From the NCBI GenBank assembly GCA_027489105.1, contig JAIYAJ010000560.1, forward strand, positions 1-6,766: DNA of 6,766 nt. Direction: 5' to 3'. This document shows positions 1 through 6,766 of the stretch, piece after piece. The notes beneath the pieces were generated by a model. That model saw only the letters and a list, made by a program, of their open reading frames with translations, had not been told where the DNA came from and ran no database searches. Source of the stretch: Zymomonas sp. GTDB taxonomy: Bacteria; Pseudomonadota; Alphaproteobacteria; Sphingomonadales; Sphingomonadaceae. The stretch's first letter is position 1; the number at the start of each line of letters is the position of its first letter. Made by a program: the position numbers and the translations under genes.

Positions 1-1092
1 GCGATACGGCTTGTTGCTGCCGTCCGATACCAGATAGACGCCGAACTCGCCCTTCGGGCTCTCGGTCGCGACGTAAACGTCGCCCTCGGGCACGTGGAAG
101 CCTTCGGTGTAGAGCTTGAAATGGTGGATCAGCGCTTCCATCGAGCGCTTCATCTCGCCGCGCTTGGGCGGCACGATCTTGCGGTCGAGGCTGGCGATCG
201 GCCCTTCGGGCATTTCGCGCAGGCACTGCTTGATGATGCGCGCCGACTGGCGGACTTCCTCGATGCGGACCATGATCCGGTCATAGCAGTCGCCCTTGGT
301 GCCGACGGGAACCTCGAAGTCCATGCGATCATAGACGTCGTAGGGCTGCGCCTTGCGGATGTCCCAGGGAATGCCGGCGGCGCGGATCATCGGGCCGGAG
401 AAGCCCCAGGCGATCGCGTCTTCCTTGCTGACCACGCCGATGTCGACGTTGCGCTGCTTGAAGATGCGATTGTCGGCGAACAGCGACACCGCGTCCTCGA
501 ACAGGCGCGGCATGCGGTCGTCGAGCCAGTCGCCGATGTCGGTCAGCAGCTTCAGCGGCACGTCCTGATGCACGCCGCCCGGACGGAACCAGGCCGAGTG
601 CATGCGGGCGCCCGAGGCCCGCTCGAAGAAATTGAGGCAATCCTCGCGGATTTCGAACAGCCACAGGTTCGGCGTCATCGCGCCGACGTCCATGACGTGC
701 GCGCCGATGTTGAGCATGTGGTTGCAGATGCGGGTCAGCTCGGCGAACAGCACGCGCAGATATTGCGCGCGGATCGGCACTTCGAGCTGGAGCAGCTTCT
801 CGATCGCCAGCACATAGCTGTGCTCCATCCCGAGCGGCGAACAATAGTCGAGCCGGTCGAAATAGGGCAGCGCCTGCAGATAGGTCTTATACTCGATCAG
901 CTTCTCGGTGCCGCGATGGAGCAGGCCGACATGCGGGTCGACACGCTCGACGATCTCGCCGTCGAGTTCCATCACCATGCGCAGCACGCCGTGCGCGGCC
1001 GGATGCTGCGGACCGAAGTTGATCGTGTAGTTCTGGATCTCCGTCTCGCCCTTCTGGACCTCGGGAGTCAGCGTGTCATAGGTCGAAGCCAT
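1..1092 (-). CDS. nuoD: NADH-quinone oxidoreductase subunit D (partial, C-terminus missing)
   Basis: This is the 49-kDa subunit of respiratory complex I. It sits in the peripheral arm at the membrane junction and, with NuoB, forms the quinone-reduction site. I translated 364 codons from the ATG at 1092 to the left edge with no stop. Homologues are about 400 residues long, so roughly the last 40 residues lie outside the window. The conserved N-terminal motif [13 protein letters not shown] spans residues 26-38. His34 and the Tyr83 of FDRLDYC match the family's quinone-headgroup ligands (His38 and Tyr87 in the Thermus subunit, from established knowledge). The start codon overlaps the nuoC stop by one base (TAATG), so translation is probably coupled. 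NuoC and NuoD are separate proteins here, unlike the NuoCD fusion of enterobacteria. The frame is intact and nothing looks broken. The identification is near certain. Confidence 0.97.
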
Positions 1093-1871
1093 TACTTCTT
1101 CGCTCCGTCGCCGAGCGGATCGGCCTTGCCTTCGCCGGTCTGCCCCACATGGTCGGTCGTCTTCGGCGTGGGCGGCGGTGCCTTGCCCTCGACCGGCTTG
1201 GGCGCGGTGCCCGTCGGTGCCGGTGCGGGCGTCGGAGCGCCCGGTTGCGTCGCGGAGACCTTCTCGTCGCCGGGCAGGATATAGTCGGCGCCTTCCCACG
1301 GGCTCATGAAGTCGAAGCTGCGGAAGTCCTGCGCCAGCTTGACCGGCTCATAGACGACGCGCTTGTGCTGCTCCGAATAGCGCAGCTCGACATAGCCCGT
1401 CAGCGGGAAGTCCTTGCGCTGCGGATGGCCCCGGAAGCCGTAATCGGTCAGGATGCGGCGCAGGTCGGGATTGCCCTCGAACAGCACGCCGTACATGTCG
1501 AACACCTCGCGCTCGAGCCAGCCGGCCACCGGCCACAGCCCGGTCACCGACGGCACCGGAGTGACCTCGTCGGCAGCGACATGGACCCGGATGCGATGGT
1601 TCCGCGTCAGGCTGAGCATGCAATAGACGACCTCGAACCGCTCGGCGCGGTCGGGATAGTCGACGCCGGCAATCTCCATCAGCTGCTGATATTCCAGCTG
1701 ATCGCGCAGGATCGTCATCGTCTCGACCAGGCTGTCGCGGGCGACGTGCAGCGCATATTCGCCGACGCACTGGCGCAGCTCGATCAGGTGCGCGCCGAGG
1801 GCGGCGGTCACCGCCTCGGCAAACCCGTCCTTGGCCGCGAAACGCGGGAAGGTCAGCGACGTGTCACTCAT
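1092..1871 (-). CDS. nuoC: NADH-quinone oxidoreductase subunit C, with Pro/Ala-rich C-terminal tail
   Basis: This is the 30-kDa subunit of complex I, a peripheral-arm protein packed against NuoD and NuoB. The protein has 259 residues. The family signature begins [20 protein letters not shown] at residues 120-139 and continues to HPQRKDFPL (149-157). The family core ends at FDFMSPWE (186-193). After it comes an extension of about 65 residues whose part from about residue 205 is rich in Pro, Ala, Thr, Gly and Lys, predicted disordered, ending GDGAKK. Most NuoC proteins of this type end soon after the SPWE motif, so the tail is the unusual part. The ATG at 1871 overlaps the nuoB stop by four bases (ATGA) and the stop overlaps the nuoD start by one base, so all three are probably translationally coupled. 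No frameshift is visible: the tail is in frame and runs exactly to the nuoD start. Confidence 0.97.
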
Positions 1872-2434
1872 CTCTCGAGCGTCCCCACGCGGCGAATCTT
1901 ACGCTGCAATTGCATGATGCCATAGAGCAGCGCTTCGGCGGTCGGCGGGCAGCCGGGCACATAGATGTCGACCGGCACGATCCGGTCACAGCCACGCACG
2001 ACCGAATAGCTATAGTGATAATAGCCGCCGCCATTGGCGCAGGAGCCCATCGAGATCACATATTTGGGCTCGGACATCTGGTCATAGACGCGACGCAGTG
2101 CCGGGGCCATCTTGTTGCACAGCGTACCGGCGACGATCATCACGTCCGACTGGCGCGGAGAGACACGCGGCGCGGCGCCGAAGCGCTCGAGGTCGTAGCG
2201 CGGCATGTTGACGTGGATCATTTCGACCGCGCAGCAGGCAAGACCGAAGGTCATCCACCACAGCGAGCCGGTCCGCGCCCACTGGAACAGCTCCTCGGCG
2301 GAGGTGACCAGAAAGCCCTTGTCGTTGACCTCGGCCTGCAGCGACTTGAAGAAGTCGGCATCGGGCTGGACGAGGTCGCCGCCGAAGCCTTCCAGCTTGT
2401 GCGGGTTGCGCGCCGGATCGAGCGTCACTCCCAT
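1868..2434 (-). CDS. nuoB: NADH-quinone oxidoreductase subunit B (N2 iron-sulfur cluster)
   Basis: This is the complex I peripheral-arm subunit that carries cluster N2, the last 4Fe-4S cluster before quinone. The protein has 188 residues. The N2 ligands are visible as the tandem Cys67-Cys68 in GLACCAVEM, Cys132 in MGSCANGGG and Cys162 in [11 protein letters not shown]; this is the full family pattern. I chose the ATG at 2434 because it gives a family-typical N-terminus (MGVTLDP) and has an AGGAGG-type ribosome site about ten bases upstream, inside the end of nuoA. The same frame stays open to 2653, but that extension only reads nuoA codons out of frame. The gene overlaps the end of nuoA by ten bases and the start of nuoC by four. 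Confidence 0.97.
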
Positions 2435-2802
2435 TCCAGGGCTCCCTCCTTCCACGCGTAGATGTAACCGATCGTCAGTTCGACCAGGAAGATCATCATC
2501 GAGGCCCAGCCGGCAAAGCCGATGCCGCCCAGCGAAACCGCCCATGGATAGAGGAAGGCCGCTTCGAGATCGAAGATGATGAACAGGATCGCGATCAGGT
2601 AGAAGCGCACGTCGAACTGCGCACGGCTGTCCTCGAAGGCCGGGAAGCCGCATTCATATTCGGTGAGCTTCTCCGGGGTCGGCTTGTGCGAGCCGGTCGC
2701 ACGCGACACGAGCATCGGCAGGAACACGAACGCGCTCGACAAAGCGAGAGCGACCCCCAGGAAGATCAGGATCGGTAGATATCCAGCGGCGACTGACGCC
2801 AT
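2425..2802 (-). CDS. nuoA: NADH-quinone oxidoreductase subunit A
   Basis: This is a small membrane subunit of complex I located near the quinone cavity. The protein has 125 residues and three predicted membrane helices, at about residues 9-31, 66-88 and 96-115. The long loop after helix 1 carries the family motif YECGFPAF (49-56) with Cys51. Helix 2 carries [19 protein letters not shown], whose Asp78 and Glu80 match the conserved acidic pair of the E. coli subunit. The ATG at 2802 is preceded by GGAG at seven bases spacing (2810-2813). It is the first gene of the nuo cluster, as in most bacteria. The 194-base gap upstream separates it from a gene on the same strand and probably holds the operon promoter. 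Confidence 0.97.
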
Positions 2803-2996
2803 GAACAGGCTCCGAGCAGAGGGCCGGGAATCCGGCCTTTGGCGCGACCTTTAGGCGCGCCGCATGTGCGAAGCAAGGTGTCGGGGAGTGAGAATGACTC
2901 GCAAAAAGGTCAGTGATTCCCGCAGATTTCCGGGAAGCTGGTCCTTGGTGCAGGCGCGCACCCGCACCGCCGCCCACGAGCGGCGGCGCGACGCCC
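2803..2996 (-). promoter_or_regulatory. Gap upstream of nuoA: hairpins and probable nuo operon promoter region
   Basis: This non-coding gap lies between the phosphatase stop and the nuoA start. From the phosphatase end it holds a 7-bp GC stem (2967-2973 with 2980-2986), a 6-bp stem TTCCCG/CGGGAA (2917-2922 with 2931-2936) followed on the minus strand by a five-T run, and a 6-bp stem GGCCGG/CCGGCC (2822-2827 with 2832-2837) that would lie in the nuoA leader. I found no convincing -35/-10 pair; a weak TTGCTT-17-TAAAGG arrangement on the minus strand is possible. Promoter function is inferred from position at the head of the operon. Confidence 0.4.
2908..2986 (-). terminator. Candidate terminator after the phosphatase gene
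   Basis: Read on the minus strand, the phosphatase stop is followed by a 7-bp GC-rich hairpin, then by a TTCCCG/CGGGAA hairpin with an 8-base loop, and then after about nine bases by TTTTT. The T run is too far from the second stem for a textbook intrinsic terminator, so this may be weak or Rho-assisted, or the transcript may continue into nuo. Confidence 0.3.
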
Positions 2997-3821
2997 TCAA
3001 AGCCCCTTGACGCCCTGCGCGACGAGCTTGTGCAGGCGCGTGGCCAGCCCGTCATTGGTGGCGAGATATTCGTTGCGCTCGTGCATCCGGTCGCCGCCGC
3101 GGAAATCGCTGACGAAGCCGCCCGCCTCGCGCACCAGCAGGATGCCGGCCGCCACGTCCCAGATCTTCAGCTCGGATTCCCAGAAGGCGTCGAAGCGGCC
3201 CGCCGCAACCCAGGCAAGGTCGAGCGAGGCGGCGCCGAAGCGACGGATTCCGGCGATCTCGGGCCCGACCTGGGCAAAGATGGCGCTCCACTTGCGGATA
3301 TCGCCATGGCCGAGGAAGGGGATGCCGGTCGCGACCAGCGCATCGGCGAGTTCGCGGCGGGCGGACACGCGCAGGCGACGGTCCTGCAACCAGGCGCCCC
3401 GCCCCTTTTCCGCCCAGAAGCTCTCGTCGGTCAGCGGCTGATAGATCAGGCCATGGCTGACGTCGCCGCGCGCCTGGCCCGGCCGGGCCGGCTCCTCGAC
3501 CGCGATCGAGATGGCGAAGTGCGGGATGCCGTGGAGGAAGTTGGTCGTGCCGTCGAGCGGGTCGATGATCCAGCGCGGCTTGTTGGGATCGCCCTCGATC
3601 TCGCCGCCCTCCTCAAGCACGAAGCCCCAGTCGGGACGGGCGCGCTTGAGCTCCTCGACCAGTGTCTGTTCGGCGCGCTGGTCGGCCATCGACACGAAGT
3701 CGGCCGGGCCCTTGCGGCTCACCTGCAGCTGCTGGACCTCGTTGAAGTCGCGGCGCAGGCGTGGCGCGGCCTTGCGCGCGGCGCGGTCCATGACGGTGAT
3801 GAGGCCGGAATGGCTGACCAA
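2997..3821 (-). CDS. Inositol monophosphatase family protein (SuhB-like)
   Basis: This is a Mg2+-dependent phosphatase of the inositol monophosphatase fold, a cytosolic enzyme. Bacterial members act on myo-inositol-1-phosphate and related sugar phosphates, and SuhB members also act in rRNA transcription. The exact substrate cannot be read from sequence. From the chosen start it has 274 residues. The metal and catalytic motifs are complete: Glu70-Glu71 in LEEGG, WIIDPLDGTTNFLHGIP (84-100) with Asp87 and Asp90, and the second signature WDVAAG (221-226) with Asp222. I chose the TTG at 3821 because GGAG lies seven bases upstream and the protein then begins MVSHSGLITVMDRAARK. A GTG at 3854 would add 11 poorly family-like residues and lacks a clear ribosome site; an ATG ten codons further in is a third option. 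It lies 122 bases downstream of efp on the same strand and may be co-transcribed with it. Confidence 0.93.
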   Translation of the reverse strand: MVSHSGLITVMDRAARKAAPRLRRDFNEVQQLQVSRKGPADFVSMADQRAEQTLVEELKRARPDWGFVLEEGGEIEGDPNKPRWIIDPLDGTTNFLHGIPHFAISIAVEEPARPGQARGDVSHGLIYQPLTDESFWAEKGRGAWLQDRRLRVSARRELADALVATGIPFLGHGDIRKWSAIFAQVGPEIAGIRRFGAASLDLAWVAAGRFDAFWESELKIWDVAAGILLVREAGGFVSDFRGGDRMHERNEYLATNDGLATRLHKLVAQGVKGL

Positions 3822-3832
3822 GATACTTCTCC
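3819..3832 (-). promoter_or_regulatory. Shine-Dalgarno sequence and TTG start of the phosphatase gene
   Basis: On the minus strand GGAGAAGTATC precedes TTG, so GGAG has seven bases spacing to the start codon. No comparable site precedes the upstream GTG at 3854 or the downstream ATG at 3791. This decides for an unusual TTG start. Confidence 0.6.
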
Positions 3833-3862
3833 GTTCGTGCCGGCCGGGCGGCACTGACTACG

Positions 3863-3927
3863 CGATACAGGGGCCCGCCGACATTCGGGTAAGGGCCGAT
3901 ACAGGCGGGCCGGCCCGGAGACCGGCC
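3863..3927. repeat. Direct and inverted repeats between efp and the phosphatase gene
   Basis: The nine bases CGATACAGG occur twice (3863-3871 and 3897-3905). GGCCCGCC (3872-3879) and GGCGGGCC (3904-3911) form an 8-bp inverted repeat with a 24-base loop. A second stem, GGCCGG (3908-3913) with CCGGCC (3922-3927), overlaps it and lies 17 bases past the efp stop on the minus strand. The two stems exclude each other because they share 3908-3911. There is no T tract, so a classical terminator is not supported. Processing, Rho-dependent ending or chance GC structure are all possible. Confidence 0.4.
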
Positions 3928-3943
3928 GCGCGATCAGGCAGGA

Positions 3944-4507
3944 TCAGTCCGCGCGGCGGACATATTCCTGGCTGTAGACGTCGACGACGATACGGGTGCC
4001 GCTGGCGATGTGCGGCGGCACCATCACGCGGACGCCATTTTCGAGCAACGCGGGCTTGTAGCTGGACGAGGCGGTCTGCCCCTTCACCACGGCATCGGCC
4101 TCGACGATCAGTGCCTCGACGGTGTCGGGCAGCTGCACCGAGATCGGGCGCTCGTCGTAGAGCTCCATGACGACGTCCATGCCGTCGTTGAGGAAGGCGG
4201 CGGCATCGCCGAGCAGATCGCGCGGCAGCGTGATCTGCTCGTAGCTGTCCTTGTCCATGAAGGTCAGGTCCTCGCCCTCGGCGAACAGGAACTGGAAATC
4301 CTTGGTGTCGAGGCGAACGCGCTCGACCGTTTCGGCGGAGCGGAAGCGGACGTTGTTCTTGCGCCCGTCGATCAGATTCTTCATCTCGACCTGCATATAG
4401 GCGCCGCCCTTGCCGGGCTGCGTATGCTGGATCTTGACGGCGCGCCAGATGCCGCCTTCATATTCGATGATGTTGCCGGGACGGATGTCCACGCCGCTGA
4501 TCTTCAT
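3944..4507 (-). CDS. efp: Translation elongation factor P
   Basis: EF-P binds stalled ribosomes between the P and E sites and restores peptide-bond formation at consecutive prolines. The protein has 187 residues, the usual length. The N-terminal KOW-like domain (about 1-62) carries the loop [12 protein letters not shown] with Lys33 at its tip, the position modified in many bacteria (Lys34 of E. coli). Two OB-type domains follow (about 66-125 and 130-185), and the C-terminal family signature runs from Lys151 ([11 protein letters not shown]) to about 176. Because the tip residue is Lys, EarP-type arginine rhamnosylation is excluded. No modification enzyme is encoded in the window. The ATG at 4507 has AGGTG just upstream (4512-4516). 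The gene is divergent from the HIG1-like gene and upstream of the phosphatase gene on the same strand. Confidence 0.97.
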
Positions 4508-4537
4508 GGTTCACCTGAGACTGAGGATTTGAAAGAG

Positions 4538-4564
4538 CCGGCGCGGCCATAGCCGCAGCGCCGG
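4538..4564. repeat. Interrupted palindrome upstream of efp
   Basis: CCGGCGC (4538-4544) pairs perfectly with GCGCCGG (4558-4564). Inside it, GGC (4545-4547) pairs with GCC (4552-4554) around CATA, leaving a GCA bulge. It lies 31-57 bases upstream of the efp start and overlaps the candidate -10 region. It could be an operator, a leader structure or chance in GC-rich DNA. No gene on either strand ends nearby, so a terminator role is unlikely. Confidence 0.4.
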
Positions 4565-4574
4565 AAAAGGGCAA
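4546..4574 (-). promoter_or_regulatory. Candidate sigma-70-type promoter of efp
   Basis: On the minus strand TTGCCC (4574-4569) and TATGGC (4551-4546) are separated by 17 bases, placing transcription start about 30 bases before the efp ATG. The match to consensus is only four of six and three of six, so this rests mostly on geometry and position. Confidence 0.3.
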
Positions 4575-4707
4575 GGCGAGTCCATGATCCGGGGCTTCCC
4601 GGCAGCGGTCGTCAGGCTTCGAGGGGCCGGGACGAAGTGAACGAAAGGGAAGATGCCGGACGGCGCGGTACATTGCGGTTCACCTGCCCTGCCGATCGCG
4701 CTACATC

Positions 4708-4938
4708 ATGCGGATGAATACAGTCTTCTTCATCCTCATCCTGCTCGCGGTGATCGCCACGGTCGTCGCACTGGTGCGGGGAATCATCGCCTTCCTCAAG
4801 ACGACGGAGGAAGACCTCAAGGCAGGAACGGTCAGCCGATCGGGCCTGCAGCAGAACAAGATGATGCGGATGCGCATCGCCTTTCAGGCGATTGCGGTGA
4901 TCCTGGTCATCCTGCTGCTGATGATGAGCCGGTCCTGA
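4708..4938 (+). CDS. HIG1-like twin transmembrane protein
   Basis: This is a 76-residue membrane protein with two hydrophobic helices (about 5-30 and 58-73) joined by a charged loop. Just before helix 2 it carries NKMMRMRIAFQ; Arg54, Arg56 and Gln60 match the RxRx3Q part of the HIG1 (hypoxia-induced gene 1) motif. The upstream Gln/Ile of the full eukaryotic motif is replaced by Asn50. HIG1 proteins in mitochondria (Rcf1 type) associate with cytochrome oxidase and respiratory supercomplexes. The bacterial role is less clear and is inferred here. The ATG at 4708 and the one at 4714 are both possible; neither has a strong ribosome site. The stop lies 13 bases before the adenosyltransferase ATG, so the two genes probably form one operon, divergent from efp. 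Confidence 0.8.
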   Translation: MRMNTVFFILILLAVIATVVALVRGIIAFLKTTEEDLKAGTVSRSGLQQNKMMRMRIAFQAIAVILVILLLMMSRS

Positions 4939-4951
4939 GCCGCCCACTGCC

Positions 4952-5521
4952 ATGGTCAGGCTGAACAGAATCTACACCCGCACGGGTGATGCGGGCGAAA
5001 CGGGCCTCGTCGACGGATCGCGCCTGCCCAAATGCGCGCCGCGCATGGCGGCGATCGGCGACGTCGACGAGCTGAACTCGGCGATCGGCGTCGCCCTGAC
5101 CCACGATATGCCGGAGGCGGCCGGCGCGAAGCTGTCGCGGATCCAGAACGAGCTGTTCGACCTCGGCGCCGATTTCGCCACCCCGGGCCCCGACTTCGCA
5201 CCATCCGAGATGGTGCTCCGCATCGTCGAATCGCAGGTCGAGCGGCTCGAGGCCGAGATCGACGAGATGAACGAGGCGCTGGAGCCGCTGCGCAGCTTCA
5301 TCCTGCCCGGCGGCCATCCGGCGGCGGCCGCGATCCATCTGGCGCGGGCGATCTGCCGGCGGGCCGAGCGGTCCGCCGTCGCGGCGGATCGCGACGCGGG
5401 GCTCAACCCGGTCGGCATGGCCTATGTGAACCGCCTGTCCGATCATCTGTTCGTGCTGGCCCGCTGGATCAATCTGGCGGGATCGGGCGACATATTGTGG
5501 AAGCCGGGGGCGACCCGCTGA
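4952..5521 (+). CDS. Cob(I)alamin adenosyltransferase, PduO type
   Basis: This cytosolic enzyme transfers the adenosyl group of ATP to cob(I)alamin or cob(I)yrinic acid a,c-diamide, making adenosylcobalamin for enzymes such as methylmalonyl-CoA mutase or class II ribonucleotide reductase. The protein has 189 residues, the typical length for the trimeric PduO family. The N-terminal ATP-binding motif YTRTGDAGETGL spans 8-19. GDVDELNSAIG follows at 36-46, SFILPGG at 115-121, the arginine-rich helix RAICRRAER at 132-140 and YVNRLSDHLFVLAR at 158-171. These are the conserved active-site blocks, and the enzyme looks intact. The ATG at 4952 gives the standard family start MVRLNRIYTRTGD. No strong ribosome site is visible, which fits coupling to the gene ending 13 bases upstream. 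It is not a CobA/CobO-type (P-loop Rossmann) enzyme despite sharing the reaction. Confidence 0.95.
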   Translation: MVRLNRIYTRTGDAGETGLVDGSRLPKCAPRMAAIGDVDELNSAIGVALTHDMPEAAGAKLSRIQNELFDLGADFATPGPDFAPSEMVLRIVESQVERLEAEIDEMNEALEPLRSFILPGGHPAAAAIHLARAICRRAERSAVAADRDAGLNPVGMAYVNRLSDHLFVLARWINLAGSGDILWKPGATR

Positions 5522-5539
5522 ACGGGACCGCACGCCCGG

Positions 5540-5559
5540 CGGCGCGGACGACCGCGCCG
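5540..5559. terminator. Stem-loop between convergent genes
   Basis: CGGCGCGG (5540-5547) and CCGCGCCG (5552-5559) form a perfect 8-bp stem with the loop ACGA. It lies 18 bases after the adenosyltransferase stop and just past the stop of the opposing small gene, where a bidirectional terminator would sit. Neither strand has a T tract, so it is at best a hairpin-only or Rho-assisted terminator. Confidence 0.45.
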
Positions 5560-5560
5560 G

Positions 5561-5695
5561 TCAGACGTGCGAAACCGCCTCCATCGCGCCGGGATCGCCG
5601 ATCATCCGGTCGAGCAGGATGAATCCCACCGACATGAAGACCAGAGCGATCAGGAGCGACTGCACAAGCTCCCGGCGACTGATCAGACCAAGCAT
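5561..5695 (-). CDS. Small single-pass membrane protein, 44 residues, unknown function
   Basis: This short gene starts at the ATG at 5695 and ends with TGA at 5563-5561. The Shine-Dalgarno sequence GGAGGA (5708-5703) is among the strongest in the window, at seven bases spacing. The product begins MLGLISRRELVQ and has one hydrophobic segment at about residues 13-28 (LLIALVFMSVGFILL), followed by a short polar tail, IGDPGAMEAVSHV. The Arg7-Arg8 pair before the helix suggests an N-in orientation. It has no domain I recognise, and I assign no function. It lies in the gap between the adenosyltransferase and uvrA, convergent with the former and divergent from the latter. Support comes from the ribosome site, the coherent membrane-protein composition and placement between hairpin and promoter-like sequence. 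It is too short for statistical certainty. Confidence 0.62.
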   Translation of the reverse strand: MLGLISRRELVQSLLIALVFMSVGFILLDRMIGDPGAMEAVSHV

Positions 5696-5702
5696 CGCAA
5701 CG

Positions 5703-5708
5703 TCCTCC
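5703..5708 (-). promoter_or_regulatory. Strong Shine-Dalgarno sequence of the 44-residue gene
   Basis: TCCTCC on the plus strand is GGAGGA on the minus strand, seven bases before the ATG at 5695. It is the main sequence evidence that this short frame is translated. Confidence 0.6.
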
Positions 5709-5746
5709 ACCAACGGAAAGCCGTGCCCCTTCTAGGCGATAGAGGG

Positions 5747-5763
5747 TTGAGAAACGCTTAACC
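5747..5763. promoter_or_regulatory. CtrA-type site between the small gene and uvrA
   Basis: TTGA-N7-TTAACC matches the CtrA consensus TTAA-N7-TTAA of alphaproteobacteria at seven of eight fixed bases and keeps the exact 7-base spacing. It is 52 bases upstream of the small gene's ATG and 66 bases upstream of uvrA, so either could be the target. It is assigned by motif match only. Confidence 0.35.
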
Positions 5764-5804
5764 ACTGCCCACATCGGCGGCCGACGGACCGCCTTGCGCG
5801 CGGC

Positions 5805-5819
5805 GAACAAATCTGGAAC
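5805..5819. promoter_or_regulatory. LexA (SOS) operator of uvrA
   Basis: GAAC-N7-GAAC on the plus strand is GTTC-N7-GTTC on the minus strand, an exact match to the direct-repeat LexA box known from alphaproteobacteria. It ends nine bases before the uvrA ATG. uvrA is a classical SOS gene, which supports the call. LexA bound here would cover the uvrA start region. Confidence 0.65.
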
Positions 5820-5828
5820 ATTCCCCAC

Positions 5829-6766
5829 ATGCTCACACATATCTCGGTGCGCGGCGCGCGCGAACATAATCTCAAGGGCGTCGACGTCGACCTGCCGCGC
5901 GACAAGCTGATCGTGATCACCGGCCTGTCGGGATCGGGCAAGTCCAGCCTTGCCTTCGACACCATCTATGCCGAGGGCCAGCGCCGCTACGTCGAGAGCC
6001 TGTCGGCTTATGCACGCCAGTTTCTCGAACTGATGCAGAAGCCCGATGTCGATCATATCGAGGGGCTATCGCCGGCCATCTCGATCGAACAGAAGACGAC
6101 CAGCCGCAACCCCCGCTCGACCGTTGCGACGGTGACCCAGATCTACGACTATATGCGCCTGCTGTGGGCGCGCGTCGGCGTGCCCTATTCGCCCGCGACC
6201 GGCCTGCCGATCGCCGCGCAGACGATCAGCCAGATGGTCGACCGCATCCTGCAGTTGAAGGAGGGCACGCGCTTCCTGCTGCTCGCCCCGGTCGTGCGTG
6301 GCCGCAAGGGCGAGTATCGCAAGGAACTGGCCGAATGGCAGAGGGCCGGCTTCAGCCGCGTCCGCATCGACGGCGAGAATTACGAGATCGAGAACGCCCC
6401 GGCGCTCGACAAGAAGTACAAGCACGACATCGAGGTGGTGGTCGACCGCCTCGTCGTCCGCGAAGGCATCGAGACCCGCCTGGCACAGAGCCTCGAAACG
6501 GCGCTGCGCCTGGCCGATGGCCTGGCATTTGCCGATCTGGTCGACACCACCGTAGCCGAGGCGACCGTACAACGCCCCTCCACCGGCTTCGCCGGGCCCC
6601 CTCCCCGTTCCGGGGAGGATCAGGGAGCAGGCAATCCTCCCCGGCACGGGGAGGGGGACCAGCCGCAGGCTGGTGGAGGGGCAGCCGTCCGCGAAATGCC
6701 CGTCGCCTTCCAATATGGCGAGGCGCTGGCGGACTCCGCCGGCAAGACCACGGGCGGCATGAAGAA
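5829..6766 (+). CDS. uvrA: Excinuclease ABC subunit A (partial, N-terminal third), with in-frame repeat insertion
   Basis: UvrA is the damage-recognition ATPase of nucleotide excision repair; it dimerises, loads UvrB and then leaves. I read 312 codons from the ATG at 5829 to the right edge with no stop; homologues are about 940-980 residues. The N-terminus [18 protein letters not shown] is typical. The first Walker A motif GLSGSGKS is at residues 32-39, followed by [15 protein letters not shown] and [20 protein letters not shown], both strongly conserved. The UvrB-binding region follows, up to about residue 245. Residues 249-285 are encoded by a 109-bp palindromic repeat and have no counterpart in E. 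coli UvrA, where this stretch is short and leads to the first zinc module. After it the frame continues with [17 protein letters not shown]. No Shine-Dalgarno sequence precedes the ATG, so the mRNA may be leaderless or nearly so. An SOS operator lies just upstream. Confidence 0.95.
6574..6682. repeat. REPIN-like inverted pair of GC-rich palindromic repeats inside uvrA
   Basis: Two related arms, 6574-6620 and 6634-6682, are inverted copies around a 13-base spacer. The outer ends are a perfect 11-bp inverted repeat, GCCCCTCCACC and GGTGGAGGGGC. The inner ends match perfectly over GGGGAGGAT and ATCCTCCCC. Each arm also has its own small hairpins, such as CCGGCTTCGCCGG in the left arm and CCAGCCGCAGGCTGG in the right. 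The arms differ by a few substitutions and a 2-base length difference. This is the architecture of REPINs (paired REP sequences moved by a RAYT transposase). It is read as codons of uvrA, residues 249-285, rich in Gly, Pro, Ala, Gln and Arg. I see no clear target duplication at its edges. Confidence 0.85.

Follow-up and report, generated by a model that had tools for sequence, protein, structure and literature searches.

An in-frame REPIN-like repeat in the uvrA gene of a Zymomonas sp. contig and apparent recurrent repeat insertion in the same UvrA loop

Introduction

Repetitive extragenic palindromic (REP) sequences have been described within known genes, as monomers and as dimers, and many of the genes concerned are DNA repair genes according to Di Nocera 2013 (PMC3733652). 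That study places in-gene REPs in uvrA of Opitutus terrae and Thioalkalivibrio, names tRNA synthetases and DNA ligase among the other REP-bearing genes and uses the REPs of S. wittichii as an example. Genes of the same category carry REPs at different sites, with the exception of recB in Xanthomonas, and flexible linkers or loops were proposed as harmless REP sites. The CGTC superfamily is defined there by a terminal CGTC (or TGTC, CCTC), a stem of 8-9 bp and a loop of 4-5 nt (PMC3733652). Rickettsia palindromic elements (RPE) are in-frame palindromic repeats that occur in unrelated genes and add peptide to the products, as described in a review (PMC10969869). Here we describe a 6,766-nucleotide stretch of DNA from Zymomonas sp. 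(GenBank assembly GCA_027489105.1, contig JAIYAJ010000560.1, positions 1 to 6,766; hereafter the window), in which a REPIN-like dimer (a pair of inverted REP arms) lies in frame within the uvrA gene.

The presence of this in-frame dimer is confirmed. An earlier note on this DNA, drawn from the letters alone, had described this insertion; it is real but not singular, as insertions of unrelated repeat families into this loop are numerous, and the finding is broader than first stated. We consider it probable (roughly 0.75) that frequent REP insertion is filtered by protein-level selection in a permissive UvrA loop, a reading based on sequence comparison. Loci and genomes are cited below by our L and G numbers, respectively.

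Results

A palindromic dimer is read in frame within uvrA

The segment holding uvrA is of sphingomonad type, and comparison with known structures matched the gene product to solved UvrA structures, with no information on the loop. The earlier note had described an inverted palindromic pair across which the uvrA frame stays open, and residues 249-285 are indeed read through. Its extent of 6574..6682 (109 bp) was one base too wide on each side, the true borders being 6575-6681 (Table 1), while the inverted pair itself stands. The termini form perfect 10-bp inverted ends (CCCCTCCACC / GGTGGAGGGG), and the inner arms (6591-6620 and 6634-6663) are each 30 nt long, 90% complementary and 13 nt apart. 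Folding of 6560-6695 gave z scores of -5.9 as DNA and -6.9 as RNA, with none of 200 shuffles equally stable in either case. A known RNA family was rejected, the element having no Rfam match at the gathering threshold.

The insert is absent from the relatives L185 and L186, so the empty site that an alignment with relatives was proposed to reveal does exist. The site reads VAEAMAPSGVREMP in L185, compared with VAEATVQR and onwards in the window, and VAEAMAPAAAGVREMP at the insert position in L186. Counted against L185, the net gain is 36 residues, in agreement with the predicted addition of about 36 Gly/Pro-rich residues. The predicted position of the element, after the UvrB-binding domain (PF17760, residues 131-236) and before the first zinc module, is likewise borne out. 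Partial forms were also observed: the left arm is missing from L090/L180, and L188 has only one arm, with both arms present in L091/L181. In L182 and L183 the inverted REP arms do not lie side by side and enclose a native loop segment, VREMPAxFQY or VRELPASFQY.

Copies of the element were counted in relatives' genomes. Matches were found in 12 of 14 such genomes, with a maximum of 134 in one and up to 100% identity over 50 bases. All 12 closer relatives contain matches, and many of these span the full-length dimer at about 75-85% identity; there are 60 in G025 and 58 in G021, whose UvrA is the best match to that of the window (97% over 312 residues). Because a palindrome can match on both strands, matches outnumber elements. 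The further copies of the arm that the earlier note had suggested looking for are hence plentiful in relatives, and the element combines two REP/REPIN traits, palindromic arms in inverted pairs and, in these relatives, many copies per genome. The near-identical copies throughout relatives' genomes, together with the empty sites, indicate that the inverted repeat is more than chance. An assembly or frameshift artefact was rejected, since the element recurs in G021 (94% nucleotide identity), where it is read in the frame used by the window; named isolate genomes (L007, L034, L037, L044), which carry other uvrA inserts, likewise argue against one.

Table 1. Coordinates of uvrA and of the repeat element in the window
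Feature	Position	Strand	Remarks
uvrA, 5' part	5829..6766	+	312 codons in window, open to window end
UvrB-binding (UvrA interaction) domain, residues 131-236	6219..6536	+	PF17760, 136.7 bits
REPIN-like dimer, 107 bp, in frame, residues 249-285	6575..6681		inverted palindromic arms; copies in relatives
Left arm (small hairpin and CCTCCCCG hairpin)	6575..6620	+	division into two hairpins is our reading
13-nt centre separating the arms	6621..6633		inverted-repeat analysis
Right arm, inverse of left arm	6634..6681	-	inverted-repeat analysis
Native loop remainder (about 29 residues)	6682..6766	+	partly common to empty-site relatives

Unrelated repeat families enter the same UvrA loop

The UvrA sample consisted of 80 loci from one scan, together with further loci and 80 fetched regions obtained via genome searches, and represents 96 of the 190 genomes in which UvrA was matched. 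It contains 165 distinct UvrAs, of which the 146 with at least 850 residues were analysed, including a few from outside the Sphingomonadales (Stella, L079). To detect repeats, the 146 genes were searched against 1.10 Mb of flanking sequence with uvrA masked. A match within the loop was found in 41 genes, or 39 of 146 once two weak cases (L062, L138) are dropped, at similar rates in both retrieval sets (19/73 and 20/73). Matches outside the loop occur in every gene and pile up on a few conserved stretches, which we read as ABC-ATPase homology. The only REP found outside the loop, a member of the window family, forms part of the C-terminal end of UvrA in L055 (around residue 978 of the reference).

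By sequence, the loop inserts form five families, present in 16, 9, 6, 6 and 3 genomes, with two families in one genome; a separate segment of L131 was assigned to family C0 in these counts. On a UvrA tree (FastTree, loop removed), the distribution of inserts requires at least 31 binary or at least 36 multi-state changes. The window sequence was excluded from this tree, as its gene is incomplete; an earlier tree had misplaced it. Sister UvrAs are often empty or carry a different family, for example L153 and L166, or L121 and L033. With the inserted G021 loop as a protein query, 68 of 111 parsed matches contained REP-family signature peptides, in a sample biased by that query.

The scatter of backbones and inserts over the UvrA tree could also arise from few insertions, spread between species by recombination of uvrA alleles, and the loops of L053, L154 and L168 are very similar, as this would predict. 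We nevertheless consider such spread very unlikely to account for the pattern, since the inserts differ in family, position and spacer, and since the tested families are plentiful in those genomes whose uvrA contains them. Family B is present in all 8 tested genomes (of the 9 with B in uvrA) and in neither of 2 others, and family C0 in all 10 tested of the 16 carrying it in uvrA.

The loop lies at the turn of a beta-hairpin

The turn before the first zinc module is approximately 17-21 residues shorter in the Geobacillus and C. thermocellum UvrAs than in the short-loop L024. In an AlphaFold model of the L001 UvrA, residues 248-308 have a predicted local distance difference test (pLDDT) score below 50 and lie between strands 232-237 and 313-317; the model is modest (mean pLDDT 68, 28 sequences), and the L001 insert belongs to a different family from that of the window. 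The first pair of the zinc module reads CPxSG, with Ser for the second Cys, in 28/28 aligned UvrAs (C322-G326 of L001), the corresponding pair in Geobacillus UvrA being CPYCG.

Inserts are mostly read in the least basic frame

All 19 arm cores of family B use one frame per strand (STSS in 9, ELVE in 10), with five of the six frames of the 14-base core open. Fewer frames are open in whole inserts than in cores, and L007, L033 and L162 have only one. The other families are less strict, C0 for example having 18 of 21 in two main phases; family D cores matched too loosely for specificity, with 60 matches outside the loop. Of 40 inserts, a count that still includes L138, 32 offer at least two open sense frames; in 31 of these the frame in use has the lowest or tied-lowest net charge. 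For the thinned set of 35 events, L053, L154 and L168 were merged into one, as were L180, L181 and L188. The used frame is strictly the least basic in 24 of the 27 testable events, compared with 12.0 expected (P 1.5e-6, a descriptive value because the charge measure was chosen after viewing the peptides). Alternative frames are mostly basic; for the window element all three sense frames are open, with charges of -1 (used), +3 and +7. The net charge of the loop is alike with REPs (mean -2.4, n=39) and without (mean -2.2, n=107).

REPs in other genes

The notion of UvrA as the only target was rejected, as in-gene REPs were also found in ligA, glyS, cbiB, hisF, a DEXH helicase, valS, sufC and uup; the names cbiB, helicase and uup rest on matches below curated cut-offs, these loci being cut. 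In-frame REPs outside uvrA and valS are spread over L084, L088, L236, L243, L267, L280 and L293. At a first ValS site, after GWPD/E, REP-derived sequence of several families (by eye) is present in 10 of 30 parsed loci (L270, L329-L358), a proportion biased upward because the ranking query held inserts and one locus is the query itself. A second ValS site gave 3 matches in 30, with inserts in L270 and L343 and a native-looking sequence in L331. For LigA, 124 genomes contain a match; 30 loci were taken from these in order of their resemblance to the copy with the insert. Of the 29 that were parsed, one is the query's own, from the one genome with an insert, and inspection by eye revealed no REP-like insert in the remaining 28; in this sample the LigA site does not share the recurrence seen in UvrA and ValS.

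The expectation that such repeats are usually intergenic was borne out. A wider sample of elements was scored by a test on the GC content of third codon positions (GC3), leaving 4 duplicates and 2 edge cases unscored. Of the 98 scored elements, 63 contain stops and 19 have an open frame but no coding signal; the 16 in genes are 7 from uvrA and 9 from elsewhere, and uvrA is over-represented among them because uvrA copies served as queries. In the uvrA flanks, a set that includes seven loci fetched for matching the window element, 3 of 41 scored elements pass the GC3 test. Of these we accept L140, and read L073 as an ordinary gene and L183 as non-coding. At most 6 of 61 flank elements lie between conserved halves of an open reading frame.

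Mobilisation and target choice

Association with a RAYT (REP-associated tyrosine) transposase is a feature of REPINs, and a search for one had been proposed in the earlier note. No such link was found: PF01797 (RAYT-type) transposases are present above the cut-off in 9 of 25 genomes, are absent at that level from the REP-rich G003, G013 and G014, and five repeat queries against 12 of 17 PF01797 loci (approximately 1.5 kb on each side) returned a single weak match, beside a PF01797 below the cut-off. By megablast, none of the plasmid records listed reached 80% coverage of the window.

It is conceivable that the uvrA loop DNA is simply a favoured REP integration site, with the frame bias arising because the target always has one codon phase. 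Many insertions within one short stretch, the single frame per strand of all 19 family B arm cores, use of the least basic frame in other genes and the repeated entry into the first ValS site are all consistent with this. Such a preference appears unlikely given that five sequence families are involved, that insertion points vary within the loop and between backbones (by eye), and that, bar the one weak match, the examined loci show no RAYT next to these families.

Sequence constraint on uvrA and on the insert

Between the window and L179 there are 42 synonymous and 4 nonsynonymous codon changes in the 249 codons before the insert, indicating that uvrA is strongly constrained. Within the 36 codons of the insert the corresponding numbers are 2 and 4. 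These values bear on whether the insertions were favoured rather than merely tolerated, with an acidic disordered loop tuning UvrA, e.g. in DNA or UvrB binding. The high frequency of inserts (39/146), the similar net charge of loops with and without them, and the recurrence of DNA repair genes among REP-tagged genes in Di Nocera 2013 (PMC3733652) would fit such adaptive domestication. We find it highly improbable, because close relatives (L185, L186) do without the insert, its codon changes resemble those of relaxed sequence, and a tRNA synthetase, ValS, displays the same pattern. The ValS recurrence also weakens the idea that DNA repair genes are special.

Elsewhere in the window (1092-1280), a gene on the minus strand, which we read as NADH dehydrogenase subunit C, has a Pro/Ala-rich tail at its end.

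Discussion

Frequent insertion filtered by protein-level selection could have proceeded as follows. REPs would insert at many places, and most in-gene insertions would be purged. The turn of this UvrA beta-hairpin, as at few sites in essential proteins, may tolerate approximately 20-60 extra residues, and selection on the protein would mostly retain insertions whose frame yields a neutral to acidic peptide. Later in-frame deletions could then shorten the insert. The window element is a member of a high-copy sphingomonad REP family that was inserted into uvrA as an inverted pair and lies in the open frame, probably as a loop of the protein.

Several observations weigh against this model. The changes required on the UvrA tree may be gains, losses or exchanges, and losses would lower the number of insertions. 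Recombination of uvrA alleles between species, the largest uncertainty in that number, could inflate it, and the two backbones, VVPGREDE and TTVAEA, are mixed on a quick single-gene tree. With respect to the frames, 1 of the 27 thinned events uses another frame and 2 are ties, 8 of the 35 thinned inserts are open in one frame only and so uninformative on frame choice, and the P value is descriptive only. The least basic frame is furthermore used in 8/8 testable insertions in other genes (our count) and in 9 of 12 ValS cases, the latter including the second site of L331 and counting L336 and L337, probably one event, twice as exceptions; the bias is hence general and not specific to UvrA. Insertion into a target whose codon phase is fixed could also produce it. 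Finally, the 4 nonsynonymous and 2 synonymous changes suggest, on these few changes, that the insert is little constrained.

In the light of the ValS data, the UvrA loop appears to be one of a few landing pads and not the only one. We tentatively propose that a few loops of essential proteins (the UvrA loop ahead of the first zinc module and the ValS loop that follows GWPD/E) might act as standing landing pads for unrelated REP families, supplying disordered sequence under neutral-to-acidic frame selection. If true, intergenic selfish repeats would constitute a recurrent, frame-filtered source of protein innovation. Previously known in-gene REPs are scattered examples; in our data a single loop of a conserved protein was entered seemingly dozens of times. 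Repeated entry by different families provides natural replicates, which allow target choice, tolerance and benefit to be compared and surviving reading frames to be identified.

Comparison with known systems

In the literature searched, which included few subscription papers, neither repeated entry into one loop nor the present frame bias was found described, and no paper was found on REPINs with RAYTs in Sphingomonas or on REPs in Sphingomonadales; the consulted part of PMC12306157 yielded no mention of sphingomonads. The recurrence at one loop is new, and the supplementary gene list of Di Nocera 2013 may include sphingomonad cases (PMC3733652).

Like a REPIN, the element is a short unit built from a pair of inverted palindromic REP arms, and it has full-length genomic copies. 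It differs from REPINs mobilised by RAYTs in that no RAYT link was found here. The window arms contain no CGTC by eye, and the family D inserts of L001 and L015 do. The Rickettsia elements, put forward in the earlier note as the closest parallel, are a valid older one but not the sole one, given the in-gene REPs, including those in uvrA, reported in 2013 (PMC3733652). With RPEs the uvrA element has in common a palindromic repeat in frame and an added peptide; RPEs measure about 150 bp and belong to an intracellular genus, whereas the uvrA element is 107 bp (PMC10969869). In-gene GTAG/CGTC REPs similarly consist of REP monomers and dimers within genes including uvrA (PMC3733652); the present case differs in that five families, across many species, have entered a single UvrA loop and show a bias in reading frame.
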